Below are positions 17,908-33,180 of a stretch of 34,120 nt of DNA, piece after piece. The translations under genes and the position numbers were made by a program. The notes below the pieces were generated by a model that had not been told where the DNA came from, searched no databases, and saw only the letters and a program-made list of their open reading frames with translations. Every line of letters begins with the position of its first letter. The first letter of the stretch is position 1. Origin of the DNA: a virus; IMG/VR virus record IMGVR_UViG_3300013104_000056, positions 1 through 34,120 of that record; one strand, given 5' to 3'.

Positions 17908-17924
17908 AATTGCGCTCGCTTGGG

Positions 17925-17942
17925 TTTCGGTGAATGCCGAAA
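17925..17942 (-). promoter_or_regulatory. Palindrome at the expected +1 of the zinc-ribbon gene
   Basis: TTTCGG-N6-CCGAAA, a perfect 6-bp inverted repeat located where transcription from the TATAAT at 17946-17951 would begin. It could be an operator or a 5' stabilising hairpin. Confidence 0.4.
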
Positions 17943-17945
17943 GCC

Positions 17946-17954
17946 ATTATACCA
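17946..17954 (-). promoter_or_regulatory. Extended -10 promoter TGGTATAAT
   Basis: The minus strand reads TGGTATAAT (TGn plus a perfect -10). No good -35 is present, which the extended -10 can compensate. It would drive the zinc-ribbon gene at 17551-17907. Confidence 0.55.
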
Positions 17955-29846: not shown

Positions 29847-30218
29847 ATGAATAAACATGGTAATAATTTTGATCGTGCAGCTTTTGACGCTTGGCATTTT
29901 AAAGACTGGAACGACAACTGCGGAAATGAGCTAGATGAAGTGGAAGCAAGACACTTATATAACCGTGTCTATAGTAGTCCAGCAAATAGTAGAGAGCGCG
30001 AACGTAGTTTTATAGCTTGGCAAGCAGCTACAGAGCAGGCAAACAAGAAACTTGATGGCTGCATATTGGTACCGATCACAAATGAAGTGGTCATGGTTAT
30101 TGAGAATGTGATACAGCAGCAATGTGATGCCAGTGGAGTACAAGAGCCACTTCACCGGTTAGATGGATGGCGGGTCCTTGAGGAAATTTCCGATTCATTG
30201 AAGGCAGGTAGCAAATGA
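29847..30218 (+). CDS. Hypothetical phage protein
   Basis: 123 residues. The first half, FDRAAFDAWHFKDW to SFIAWQAATEQ, has repeated aromatic/acid patterns of the type seen in small phage proteins that pack against replication or recombination proteins. The second half ends LHRLDGWRVLEEISDSLKAG, a helical segment. It overlaps the PrtN-like gene by 4 bp. Function not known. Confidence 0.65.
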   Translation: MNKHGNNFDRAAFDAWHFKDWNDNCGNELDEVEARHLYNRVYSSPANSRERERSFIAWQAATEQANKKLDGCILVPITNEVVMVIENVIQQQCDASGVQEPLHRLDGWRVLEEISDSLKAGSK

Positions 30219-30496
30219 AACAAAACCAAAAACCACCTCTTAACACTGCTACTCTATTGGCTCTACAGTACCAATCGCCCGTAGTTAAGCTAGAGGATCT
30301 GATAGATGACTACTTGCCCCATTTATCGCTACCAGTAGCTAAGAAAATGGCAAGAGAACAAAAGTTGCCTTTTCCAGTTTTTAAGTCTGGTGAATCAAAC
30401 AAAGCCCCATGGATGGTAAGTATTTTTGATTTAGCAACTTATATTGATAAGCAAAGATCCATTGCTTCACATGACCACACGGCAATGTCTGGATAA
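30215..30496 (+). CDS. PrtN-family DNA-binding protein (possible excisionase)
   Basis: 93 residues. The pattern TLLALQYQSPVVKLEDLIDD, ARE-x-KLPFPVFKSGES, then KAPWMVSIFDLATYIDKQRS is that of the pyocin activator PrtN family, small winged-helix-like DNA-binding proteins often found next to phage integrases. Here it is the last gene of the early operon, convergent with the integrase. The position suggests it acts as an excisionase or directionality factor; this is inference, not shown by the family name. Confidence 0.78.
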   Translation: MKQNQKPPLNTATLLALQYQSPVVKLEDLIDDYLPHLSLPVAKKMAREQKLPFPVFKSGESNKAPWMVSIFDLATYIDKQRSIASHDHTAMSG

Positions 30497-31733: not shown

Positions 31734-31752
31734 TAGTTGCATTATAGTTGCA
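31734..31752. repeat. Left arm-type integrase sites, TAGTTGCA x2
   Basis: TAGTTGCA at 31734-31741 and 31745-31752, same orientation, starts 11 bp apart (one helical turn). They overlap the perfect leftward -10 TATAAT (minus strand, 31741-31746) of the integrase gene, so Int binding could repress its own promoter. Confidence 0.65.
31741..31746 (-). promoter_or_regulatory. Candidate integrase promoter -10
   Basis: Minus strand TATAAT inside the left arm-site pair, 39 bases upstream of the integrase ATG; no clear -35. Confidence 0.45.
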
Positions 31753-31820
31753 GAAAAATAGAAAAAGATCAAAAAAGATTAATAATGATCTAAAATGTTT
31801 AGTGTTTCATAGGTGCTTAA

Positions 31821-31910
31821 ATGTCTGATTTAGAAATAAATTCAATTAAATCAATAACACCACGCATAAGCGTGGCTCCTATGATGGATTGGACACCAAT
31901 ATTAAAATAG
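31821..31910 (+). pseudogene. dusA: Phage-borne 5' end of dusA (attP core region)
   Basis: Thirty codons with AGGTG five bases before the ATG encode MSDLEINSIKSITPRISVAP-MMDWTPILK. The segment PRISVAPMMDWT is the conserved N-terminus of tRNA-dihydrouridine synthase A; after Trp-Thr the frame diverges and stops. dusA is a documented integration site for phages. On integration here, the phage copy would supply a new 5' end (start codon and ribosome site) to the host gene. The core of crossover is expected within 31861-31895. Confidence 0.82.
31861..31895. other. attP core within dusA codons
   Basis: The bases encoding PRISVAPMMDWT end where identity to dusA appears to stop, so the crossover must lie here. 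Arm-type pairs flank it at about 110-130 bp on the left and 55-75 bp on the right. Confidence 0.65.
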
Positions 31911-31950
31911 TAAAATCATTTCAATAGCTTAACCGATATTAAAAAATCAA

Positions 31951-31969
31951 TAGTTGCAAAATAGTTGCA
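31951..31969. repeat. Right arm-type integrase sites, TAGTTGCA x2
   Basis: TAGTTGCA at 31951-31958 and 31962-31969, same orientation and same 11-bp spacing as the left pair. An A/T-rich 21-bp context is shared by both pairs. Confidence 0.65.
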
Positions 31970-32021
31970 TTAAAATCCTAATTTCTTCTAAAAAGATTTG
32001 AAATAACGGTCCAGTCAAAGG

Positions 32022-32304
32022 GTACTCTTATGGTGAGTACCCTTGATACTATCGAGGGTAGTTTCATCACTTACTAACCAACTTAAAGTTGGTTAGTTGA
32101 AACTAACTATCTCAAAGCTAGTTACACTGAGTGACTTTGAGGTACTCAGTTGTGAGTATCTTTAAGCTACTTGCAAAATTAACATGGTGACTTAAAGTCA
32201 TCATGTTATTAACTTTCTCCGATGGTGAAAGTTGAACATAAGCAATCCTTCATTCACATTCCTAAAAAGTCAGGAGCGTACCTGATACTCTCATTCTGAG
32301 TATC
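32022..32304 (+). repeat. Three hairpins sharing GRTACTC-N6/7-GAGTAYC
   Basis: GGTACTC-N7-GAGTACC at about 32021-32041, GGTACTC-N6-GAGTATC at 32141-32160, and GATACTC-N7-GAGTATC at 32284-32304. The apical stem is kept while the flanks differ. Confidence 0.55.
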
Positions 32305-32605
32305 AGATGGTCTTCCTCAATTTGAGGACGCGCTATTACCCCTAAATAAGTAATTTGACTGAACGGAAAATTGCGCTAACCTTTATAATCAATTGGATAG
32401 CTGAATGGTCATTTTGACCATGTAGCTTTTTGGTTTCGGAAAATACCGAAATCAATTTAAAGGTATGCCTGAAAATCGGACTGAGCTAATTTTTCAAATG
32501 TCTGGATTTCGGACATTTGAACTAAAAAAGGTTTGCTGTTGGGGAATTTCCCAATACCAACATATTGCACTTTATTGGCAAAAACCAAAAAACTAAAATT
32601 TAGGC

Positions 32606-32644
32606 AAAAAAATAAGGGGTATGCCAACTAGACATACCCCTTTT
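32606..32644. terminator. Terminator at the end of the lysis operon and of the hairpin array
   Basis: Perfect 10-bp stem AAGGGGTATG/CATACCCCTT with a 9-base loop. The minus strand continues TTATTTTTTT, so it ends the leftward lysis message; TTTT on the plus strand would also end a rightward transcript. Confidence 0.85.
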
Positions 32645-32678
32645 ACGAACGCCAAAATTGGCGCTCGTTAATCATTAT

Positions 32679-32972
32679 TTATTGTGTTGCCTTTGCCAAT
32701 GCTGCGTGTCTTGTTTTGCAATCATTATATTTTGCAACTGTATCAACCGACCAGATCATTAAATCTTTGCCAGTTGTGCCCTCGATCTCATTTAAATTTG
32801 GGCACGCCAGAATAAGGTTAGCTGGTATTGCCGGCTTTAATAAGATCGTTGATCTGGTACACCCCGTCATCATCAATACAGCTAGACTTATAAACAGGAC
32901 GCTCAACGATCTTTTGCACTTCACGTTCAATATATTCGACTTTGCTCCTTTGCTCTGCTTTGACTTGTTCAT
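32679..32972 (-). CDS. Rz1-like outer-membrane spanin lipoprotein
   Basis: 97 residues. It begins with a basic region, then SLSVLFISLAVLMMTGC with lipobox Cys38, so it is a lipoprotein. The mature part is short and proline-containing (KPAIPANLILACPNLNEIEG). A GTG start at 32924 (VKCKRSLSV) would give a more usual signal peptide. It overlaps the Rz gene in another frame, the typical nested Rz/Rz1 arrangement. Together they fuse inner and outer membranes at lysis. Confidence 0.78.
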   Translation of the reverse strand: MNKSKQSKGAKSNILNVKCKRSLSVLFISLAVLMMTGCTRSTILLKPAIPANLILACPNLNEIEGTTGKDLMIWSVDTVAKYNDCKTRHAALAKATQ

Positions 32973-33180
32973 ATTCTGCGCTCACTTTATTGATTTGATT
33001 TTGCTTGACTGCTAAGGCCTCTAAATTTTTCTTCTCAATTTTCTGGATCTGAGCCAAGCATTTTTGGTCAGCTTGATCTAGTTTCCCTGCCAAGTGATTT
33101 GTGTACCCAATCTGAATGAAGTACAAAATTGACAAAACGATGATCAAGGACCAACGTTTATTGTTTAAAACCCAAGTCAT
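32818..33180 (-). CDS. Rz-like inner-membrane spanin
   Basis: 120 residues. One N-terminal transmembrane helix (WSLIIVLSILYFIQIGY), then a long periplasmic coiled coil (KCLAQIQKIEKKNLEALAVK, VSAEYEQVKAEQRSKVEYIE) and a Cys-containing end. Its ATG overlaps the endolysin stop (ATGA). It partners with the overlapping Rz1-like lipoprotein. Confidence 0.82.
   Translation of the reverse strand: MTWVLNNKRWSLIIVLSILYFIQIGYTNHLAGKLDQADQKCLAQIQKIEKKNLEALAVKQNQINKVSAEYEQVKAEQRSKVEYIEREVQKIVERPVYKSSCIDDDGVYQINDLIKAGNTS

Follow-up and report, generated by a model that had tools for sequence, protein, structure and literature searches.

Locus and attachment site

The window analyzed here, 34,120 bases long, is a complete record of IMG/VR and, judged from its relatives, is an Acinetobacter-type temperate phage. 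Its array of hairpins is located beyond attP, which adjoins the integrase gene, and before the leftward Rz1/Rz spanin genes (positions 32679 to 33180, minus strand; PHROG Rz-like spanin matches). The attP (31821 to 31910, plus strand) provides a replacement for the 5' coding end of dusA (MSDLEINSIKSITPRISVAPMMDWTPILK*) and includes the crossover core. The sole NCBIfam match of the encoded peptide is DusA (E 0.0017; E 0.00054 for the equivalent peptide of the relative L004), and the same layout is found in L004 and L116. Because no site for the attP core was found in 81 host genomes with as many as 3 mismatches allowed, the dusA assignment rests on the peptide match. From the geometry of the sequence, integration would bring the promoter and first codons of the host dusA to a position immediately upstream of the array, into which they would read rightward, and the phage would supply a new dusA start on the integrase side.

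The TAGTTGCA motifs, found on both sides of the dusA attP (31738 to 31760 and 31946 to 31975) and resembled by words in L116, are candidate integrase arm-binding sites. A small PrtN-like (PyocinActivator) protein encoded next to the integrase gene (30215 to 30496) is probably an excisionase. The array itself was considered as a set of arm sites, and this was rejected: the dusA-type attP of L116 has TAGTTGCA motifs beside it and no array. Arrays adjoin attP or an integrase gene in the window, L004 and L118, and a host gene other than dusA in L083. Because arrays occur at varied sites and the dusA-type attP of L116 lacks one, they are not part of the integration machinery.

Structure and strand of the hairpin array

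Positions 32018 to 32642 are packed with different short hairpins, as a preliminary description of this DNA had noticed; about 15 are counted here. That description also took the region to be noncoding, and no open reading frame of at least 60 amino acids occurs from 31910 to 32679. Half of the bases in the array are in stems (50%, versus 10% in the rest of the window), and the array is the strongest run of locally structured 300-nucleotide segments in the 34-kb record. Folding energy, which the preliminary description had proposed as a check, confirmed the structure (-224.7 kcal/mol and z -12.3 for the 661 nucleotides from 32010 to 32670). The minus strand is also strongly folded (z -11.2), as would be expected for palindromes. 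The array contains no direct repeats of 16 bp or longer, and Rfam searches of it with gathering and relaxed thresholds yielded nothing credible. A weak second copy of the hairpin TTTGGTTTCGG..CCGAAATC (32429 to 32457) is found elsewhere in the window, at 17920 to 17948, near a small ORF.

The strand on which the array might be transcribed had been proposed from seven imperfect stems whose odd pair is G-T on the plus strand. Base-by-base inspection found G-T in all seven; the bias itself is not robust under a symmetric count, because the stems had been picked with G-T counted as a pair and A-C as a break. When both are treated alike, the ratio of internal G.T to A.C in the window is 5:4, or 6:4 if the cut-off is lowered. 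Over 16 array-bearing stretches it is 34:23 (p=0.18), and in a non-array control it is 61:60. The last stem (32645 to 32668) has A-C on the plus strand, and the counterpart in L004 of the stem at 32539 to 32554 has A.C on that strand.

The same proposal had the rightward transcript end at the hairpin at 32614 to 32642. A terminator scan calls this hairpin on the minus strand only, where its T-tract lies (tail ATTTTTTTGC), and it looks like the intrinsic terminator at the end of the leftward lysis operon. Its counterparts in two relatives match loop palindromes of Bro-N or Rha genes (L004, 95.8% to the Bro-N gene L422; L080, 84.8% to the Rha gene L339). A conserved CCCTTA..TTTTTTTGCCTRAA pattern proved to be the late-operon terminator, and its matches are mostly unrelated terminators. 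Rightward transcription is still plausible on grounds other than G-U bias, because the interrupted dusA promoter would read into the array. Promoter prediction on the array itself gave nothing above the expectation from shuffled sequences.

Array elements match antirepressor genes

At least 8 of the roughly 15 window hairpins match one site in antirepressor-type genes of many phages (ORF6N, Rha and P22_AR_N). For sister arrays, the genes that their elements match also include KilA-N and Bro-N. These matches were exposed only by a relaxed search (E up to 10); a search of phage and plasmid records with the whole array at E 1e-5 found none. In the relaxed search, the phage matches with the lowest E values are named BRO family protein, anti-repressor protein, anti-repressor Ant and transcriptional regulator, and they involve three different hairpins. 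The gene sets used here comprise Moraxellaceae and relatives found in IMG/VR.

Among 349 Moraxellaceae genomes, the window hairpins match 12 loci, with matches to flanking sequence (attP, the A-rich stretch from 32567 onward, and Rz1) set aside. Seven of these loci are inside antirepressor-type genes (L115, L117, L119, L127, L138, L140 and L142), two are directly 3' of AntA antirepressor genes (L114 and L120), two are arrays (L118 and L139), and one (L121) is assigned to none of these kinds. Pfam domains of representative matched genes are Phage_pRha/ANT, ORF6N, P22_AR_N and AntA. As a control, the array with its letters reversed, which preserves palindromes and composition, matches one locus in the 349 genomes, in an unrelated gene. 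In a local set of 0.83 Mb, 21 of the 28 distinct matches of five arrays fall in antirepressor stretches, which make up 4.4% of the set (p=3e-23); the reversed arrays have no match in these stretches and one elsewhere.

The best match of the window array in each of three complete phages, qsb1, TCUAN1 and TL-2011b, is the antirepressor gene, in antisense orientation (E 2e-7, 5e-6 and 4.5e-6, respectively; next best 0.03 or worse). The L118 array, located on an integrative element beside an integrase gene, matches a BRO gene and rha genes of Escherichia phages such as HK639, and the L080 array matches Rha of a Pantoea phage and a Plesiomonas phage. When the L083 and L080 arrays were searched jointly against the 349 genomes, two loci were found, L334 (KilA-N) and L335 (Rha), both named from reading their translations. 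Elements of L004, L080 and L118 match Bro-N, P22_AR_N, Rha and ORF6N genes.

Individual elements of the window array

The array is a modular row of palindromic elements of about 25 to 45 nucleotides each. Elements 1 and 2 (GGGTACTC..GAGTACCC and ACTATC..GGTAGT; 32018 to 32062) are overlapping alternatives that have no informative phage match. The relative L080 keeps both (73.8% over 42 nucleotides).

The elements with a corresponding gene are assigned to the plus strand. An ORF6N-type loop palindrome, ACTAACCAACTTAAAGTTGGTTAGT (32073 to 32097), matches the loop of the ORF6N gene L177 in the sense orientation over 43 nucleotides (E 3e-4). Two further ORF6N-type elements, AACTAACTATCTCAAAGCTAGTTA and ACTGAGTGACTTTGAGGTACTCAGT (32104 to 32150), correspond to the ORF6N genes L172 and L185 and show a double compensatory change in L067/L083. 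The element TTGTGAGTATCTTTAAGCTACTTGCAAAAT (32139 to 32180) is antisense to an ORF6N antirepressor loop. It matches the Acinetobacter phages qsb1 (41 nucleotides, 85%) and TCUAN1 (30 nucleotides, 93%), in each of which it is the best match of the array, and the ORF6N gene L140. Another ORF6N-type element, TAACATGGTGACTTAAAGTCATCATGTTA (32180 to 32208), is identical at 15 of 15 positions to the loop palindrome of the ORF6N gene L228.

The Rha-type elements occur in both orientations. The element at 32205 to 32247 is a sense copy of a segment encoding LxPMVKVExKQS in Rha genes L117, L119 and L127 and in Klebsiella phage LASTA, and its homology extends beyond the palindrome at both ends. The element at 32311 to 32343 is antisense to a Rha loop encoding VIARPQIE (L138 and L142; L148 over 30 nucleotides, 90%). 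A diverged sense element (32355 to 32391) corresponds to the ERNFALxFE segment of the Rha gene L335 (73% over 37 nucleotides, E 4e-5 in a pairwise search). The element at 32394 to 32431 is antisense to the P22_AR_N gene Ant where it encodes CMVKMTIQL (L115 and Escherichia phage TL-2011b Ant, 32 nucleotides, 90.6%), and its palindrome is also found just 3' of the AntA genes L114 and L120.

The target search yielded no target for six array hairpins. These include CTGATACTCTCATTCTGAGTATCAG (32282 to 32306) and three hairpins at 32430 to 32560 (TTGGTTTCGGAAAATACCGAAATCAA, TTCAAATGTCTGGATTTCGGACATTTGAA and TTGCTGTTGGGGAATTTCCCAATACCAA), the middle one of which is cleanly absent from L004.

In some elements, gene context continues past the palindrome, as with LxPMVKVExKQS (32205 to 32247) and VIARPQIE (32311 to 32343). 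Homology that runs into conserved codons would be expected had the arrays received these segments from genes. At least half of the elements are homologous to the palindromic segment of antirepressor genes and were probably captured from it.

A selected palindrome in the antirepressor genes

The matched site is a hypervariable loop at about nucleotides 120 to 230 of antirepressor-type genes. In ORF6N genes, it is flanked by two invariant motifs, GKHF and LWTE.GA, and both the sequence and the length of the protein are hypervariable there. The DNA of this site forms a hairpin, the sequence of which varies from phage to phage. Similar palindromes are found at the corresponding place in many Moraxellaceae Bro-N, KilA-N, P22_AR_N and Rha genes. 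Among 130 non-redundant genes of five families, the palindrome score of the loop exceeds that of synonymous-codon shuffles (Wilcoxon p=4e-20) and of downstream segments (p=7e-31), and this is seen in each family, with Rha the weakest. Because palindromy exceeds what the protein requires, the reason for its retention must lie at the level of nucleic acid. An AlphaFold model of an ORF6N protein, of moderate quality and with no confident PDB relative, places the palindrome-encoded residues at a helix end and in a low-confidence loop.

We found no description of palindromes in these antirepressor genes in the openly licensed literature. A selected palindrome that encodes the variable loop of ORF6N, Bro-N, KilA-N, P22_AR_N and Rha genes is unexpected, whatever its function, and is easy to verify in public genomes.

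Additional palindromes are found near some of these genes. Phage TCUAN1 (L313:12410-12429) and L168 (L168:2902-2921) carry the internal palindrome of the antirepressor a second time, in unchanged orientation, immediately past the stop codon, and a palindrome likewise adjoins the 3' end of the AntA genes L114 and L120. A second palindrome near most ORF6N genes was considered as a cis regulator and dropped, as it is clear only in L168 and TCUAN1. The ORF6N genes L162, L196 and L219 (around 2213-2259) contain a second in-frame hairpin that encodes LQPSxRGLQIS and resembles a hairpin cassette inserted into the gene.

Gain, loss and change of elements

Arrays recur in several other Acinetobacter-type phages and in islands, and their elements occur in both sense and antisense orientation. 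L004 lacks exactly positions 32490 to 32524 and most of 32132 to 32359. Compensatory change, which had been suggested as a check on the stems, is found for only part of them: some stems are kept through double changes in relatives, and other stems decay. For example, ACTGAG..CTCAGT is ACTAAG..CTTAGT in L083, and GTATG..CATAC is GTGTG..CACAC in L080. Such double changes, together with the gain and loss of whole units, support the earlier suggestion that the hairpins are under selection. Three array-bearing elements also encode a Rha or Bro-N gene, and none of the three has a clear copy of its own loop in its own array.

Possible functions

Antirepressors decide whether a prophage stays dormant, and those of one phage can act on other phages. 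The search for an antirepressor-type domain in the window phage itself found none, which points to targets in other phages. The favored reading, to which we give close to an even chance, tilted slightly against, is that RNA from the array pairs with and silences the antirepressor mRNAs of other phages and thereby protects lysogeny. In a lysogen, the interrupted dusA promoter could plausibly drive transcription of the array. The product would be an untranslated RNA of independent hairpins, each of which would pair with the matching mRNA hairpin of the antirepressor of an incoming or co-resident phage and block its expression. This would shield the resident CI-type repressor, and thus lysogeny, against antirepressors of foreign phages. 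Since the target is a palindrome, the arms of an element captured in either orientation remain complementary to it, and base pairing would explain how such different sequences are recognized. The analysis shows the homology and its concentration in antirepressor loops, the excess palindromy of the targets, the turnover of units, and the recurrence of arrays; the direction of capture, transcription, pairing in the cell, silencing and any benefit are inferred.

Complementarity to antirepressor mRNA, the property by which membership in the class of antirepressor-silencing RNAs was tested, is seen in both the enrichment of matches and the duplex predictions. The energies of predicted duplexes with antirepressor mRNAs lie between -27 and -61 kcal/mol (z between -4 and -10.8), with values of -52 kcal/mol and 31 contiguous pairs for qsb1, -49 for TCUAN1, -61 for TL-2011b and -43 for L142; sense-type elements reach -27 to -32 kcal/mol through their arms. 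Differences in antisense matches keep a G-U pair in 25 cases and break pairing in 10 (p=0.017). Sense matches lean the same way, less strongly (27:20; Fisher p=0.25 against antisense), so the 25:10 count could reflect mutational drift.

Several observations count against silencing. Elements are of mixed orientation, the stems show no strand bias, no promoter is predicted above chance, and the target search yielded nothing for six hairpins. The target is well inside the gene, whereas C4 and sar use the ribosome-binding site. Also, being silenced by others does not explain why antirepressor genes keep the palindrome.

A more far-reaching reading of the array is possible and rather less probable: temperate phages and satellites may hold a repeat-free, RNA-based immune memory, in which captured antirepressor palindromes are stored beside attP and silence in trans, and the hypervariable palindromic loop serves as a recognition tag. 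If true, this would be a previously unseen layer of conflict among temperate phages, with CRISPR-like logic and neither repeats nor Cas proteins. The finding of a selected palindrome in antirepressor-type genes, independent of function, turns a hairpin cluster that was formerly unexplained into directly testable target predictions.

Alternately, the array could be a DNA-level store of cassettes, the donor or by-product of recombination that swaps variable-loop segments and diversifies antirepressor specificity, with no RNA function. The loop segments are hypervariable and modular, the extra LQPSxRGLQIS hairpin of some ORF6N genes resembles an inserted cassette, and both orientations and the lack of strand bias fit. 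However, donor segments would have no need of palindromes, and palindromy is under selection beyond what the protein sequence demands. The window phage also lacks an antirepressor gene that could be diversified, and at least one element (32205 to 32247) is shifted in frame by a gap relative to its gene. We consider this store unlikely.

It is quite unlikely that the array is a decoy, or sponge, that mimics the mRNA hairpins and soaks up whatever binds them, whether an antisense sRNA, an RNA-binding protein or the antirepressor protein itself. Sense-orientation elements do resemble target mimics, orientation would not matter to such a decoy, and a phage sponge sRNA of the AgvB type is known (PMC12197685). 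However, no known regulator binds these hairpins, and a protein binder would face dozens of unrelated palindromes that, in addition, encode part of the binder itself. Such recognition is hard to maintain for a protein but comes automatically with base pairing.

Non-functional debris, namely palindromic fragments that gather at the edge of an element by illegitimate recombination and then decay, is a distinctly improbable source of the arrays. The edge beside att is a common place of insertion, and the arrays of L319, L321 and L322 look degraded, but some stems are kept through double changes, one gene class and one site dominate the matches, and arrays recur in independent phages and islands. 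The original proposal of a self-contained structured noncoding RNA that has a conserved fold of its own, favored by very strong folding energy and some compensatory changes, is very improbable because hairpins are gained and lost unit by unit and differ between relatives, which leaves no common fold, there is no Rfam match, and at least half of the hairpins are explained as gene-related; a row of separate elements is a better description of the array, and at least half of these elements match the palindromic segment of antirepressor genes.

Relation to known systems

Silencing of antirepressors by phage RNA is established for sar and C4 and has been proposed for 24B_1 (PMC12197685). Acinetobacter baumannii has many C4-like sRNAs (Group 1), as well as sRNAs composed of modular hairpins (groups 3-6) and the cluster ABUWs048-051 (PMC5320573). 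The C4 RNA of phages P1 and P7 (RF01695) is similar to the array in that phage hairpins are complementary to antirepressor mRNA, a variable part sets specificity, and the role is in immunity, a role that for the array is proposed. However, C4 is one conserved three-stem RNA that is processed by RNase P from a longer transcript and whose loops bind at and upstream of the ribosome site of ant, whereas the array comprises about 15 unrelated hairpins that match the coding segment at nucleotides 120 to 230, or 3' of the gene, and span several antirepressor families. The C4 covariance model matches neither the window nor any of 16 related loci.

The P22 sar RNA (RF00262) is antisense to the antirepressor gene ant, and the array is predicted to share such complementarity. 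The gene for sar overlaps the ant leader in cis, whereas the phage that carries the array lacks ant, and the site matched by the array is another one. RF00262 has no match in the window and is found only in TL-2011b, adjoining ant.

CRISPR arrays are likewise rows of short segments with matches in the genes of other phages, and these segments are gained and lost unit by unit. In contrast to them, the hairpin array has no direct repeats (at least 16 bp), no Cas proteins are seen in the window, and its elements, which are palindromic, come from a single site in one functional class of genes.

Rickettsia palindromic elements are palindromes located in frame within protein genes. The palindromes described here differ from that general description in that there is no single repeated family, they occupy one equivalent loop of antirepressor genes, and they are found in noncoding arrays as well.

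Other features were observed near related arrays. In L118 (L118:2100-2590) and L317 (L317:1900-2330), the array is followed by a long noncoding stretch with recurring AACCTGATAAAACCTGA-like words. A tandemly repeated unit (KIALVNELRNFRSRTAQNCVHLHARVVVPKPEFSVIDQR in one frame) adjoins array-like hairpins in L325 (L325:1123-1554). A Pseudomonadales-1 RNA (RF03046, 91 bits) is located at L080:1134-1295, on the same contig as a hairpin array.
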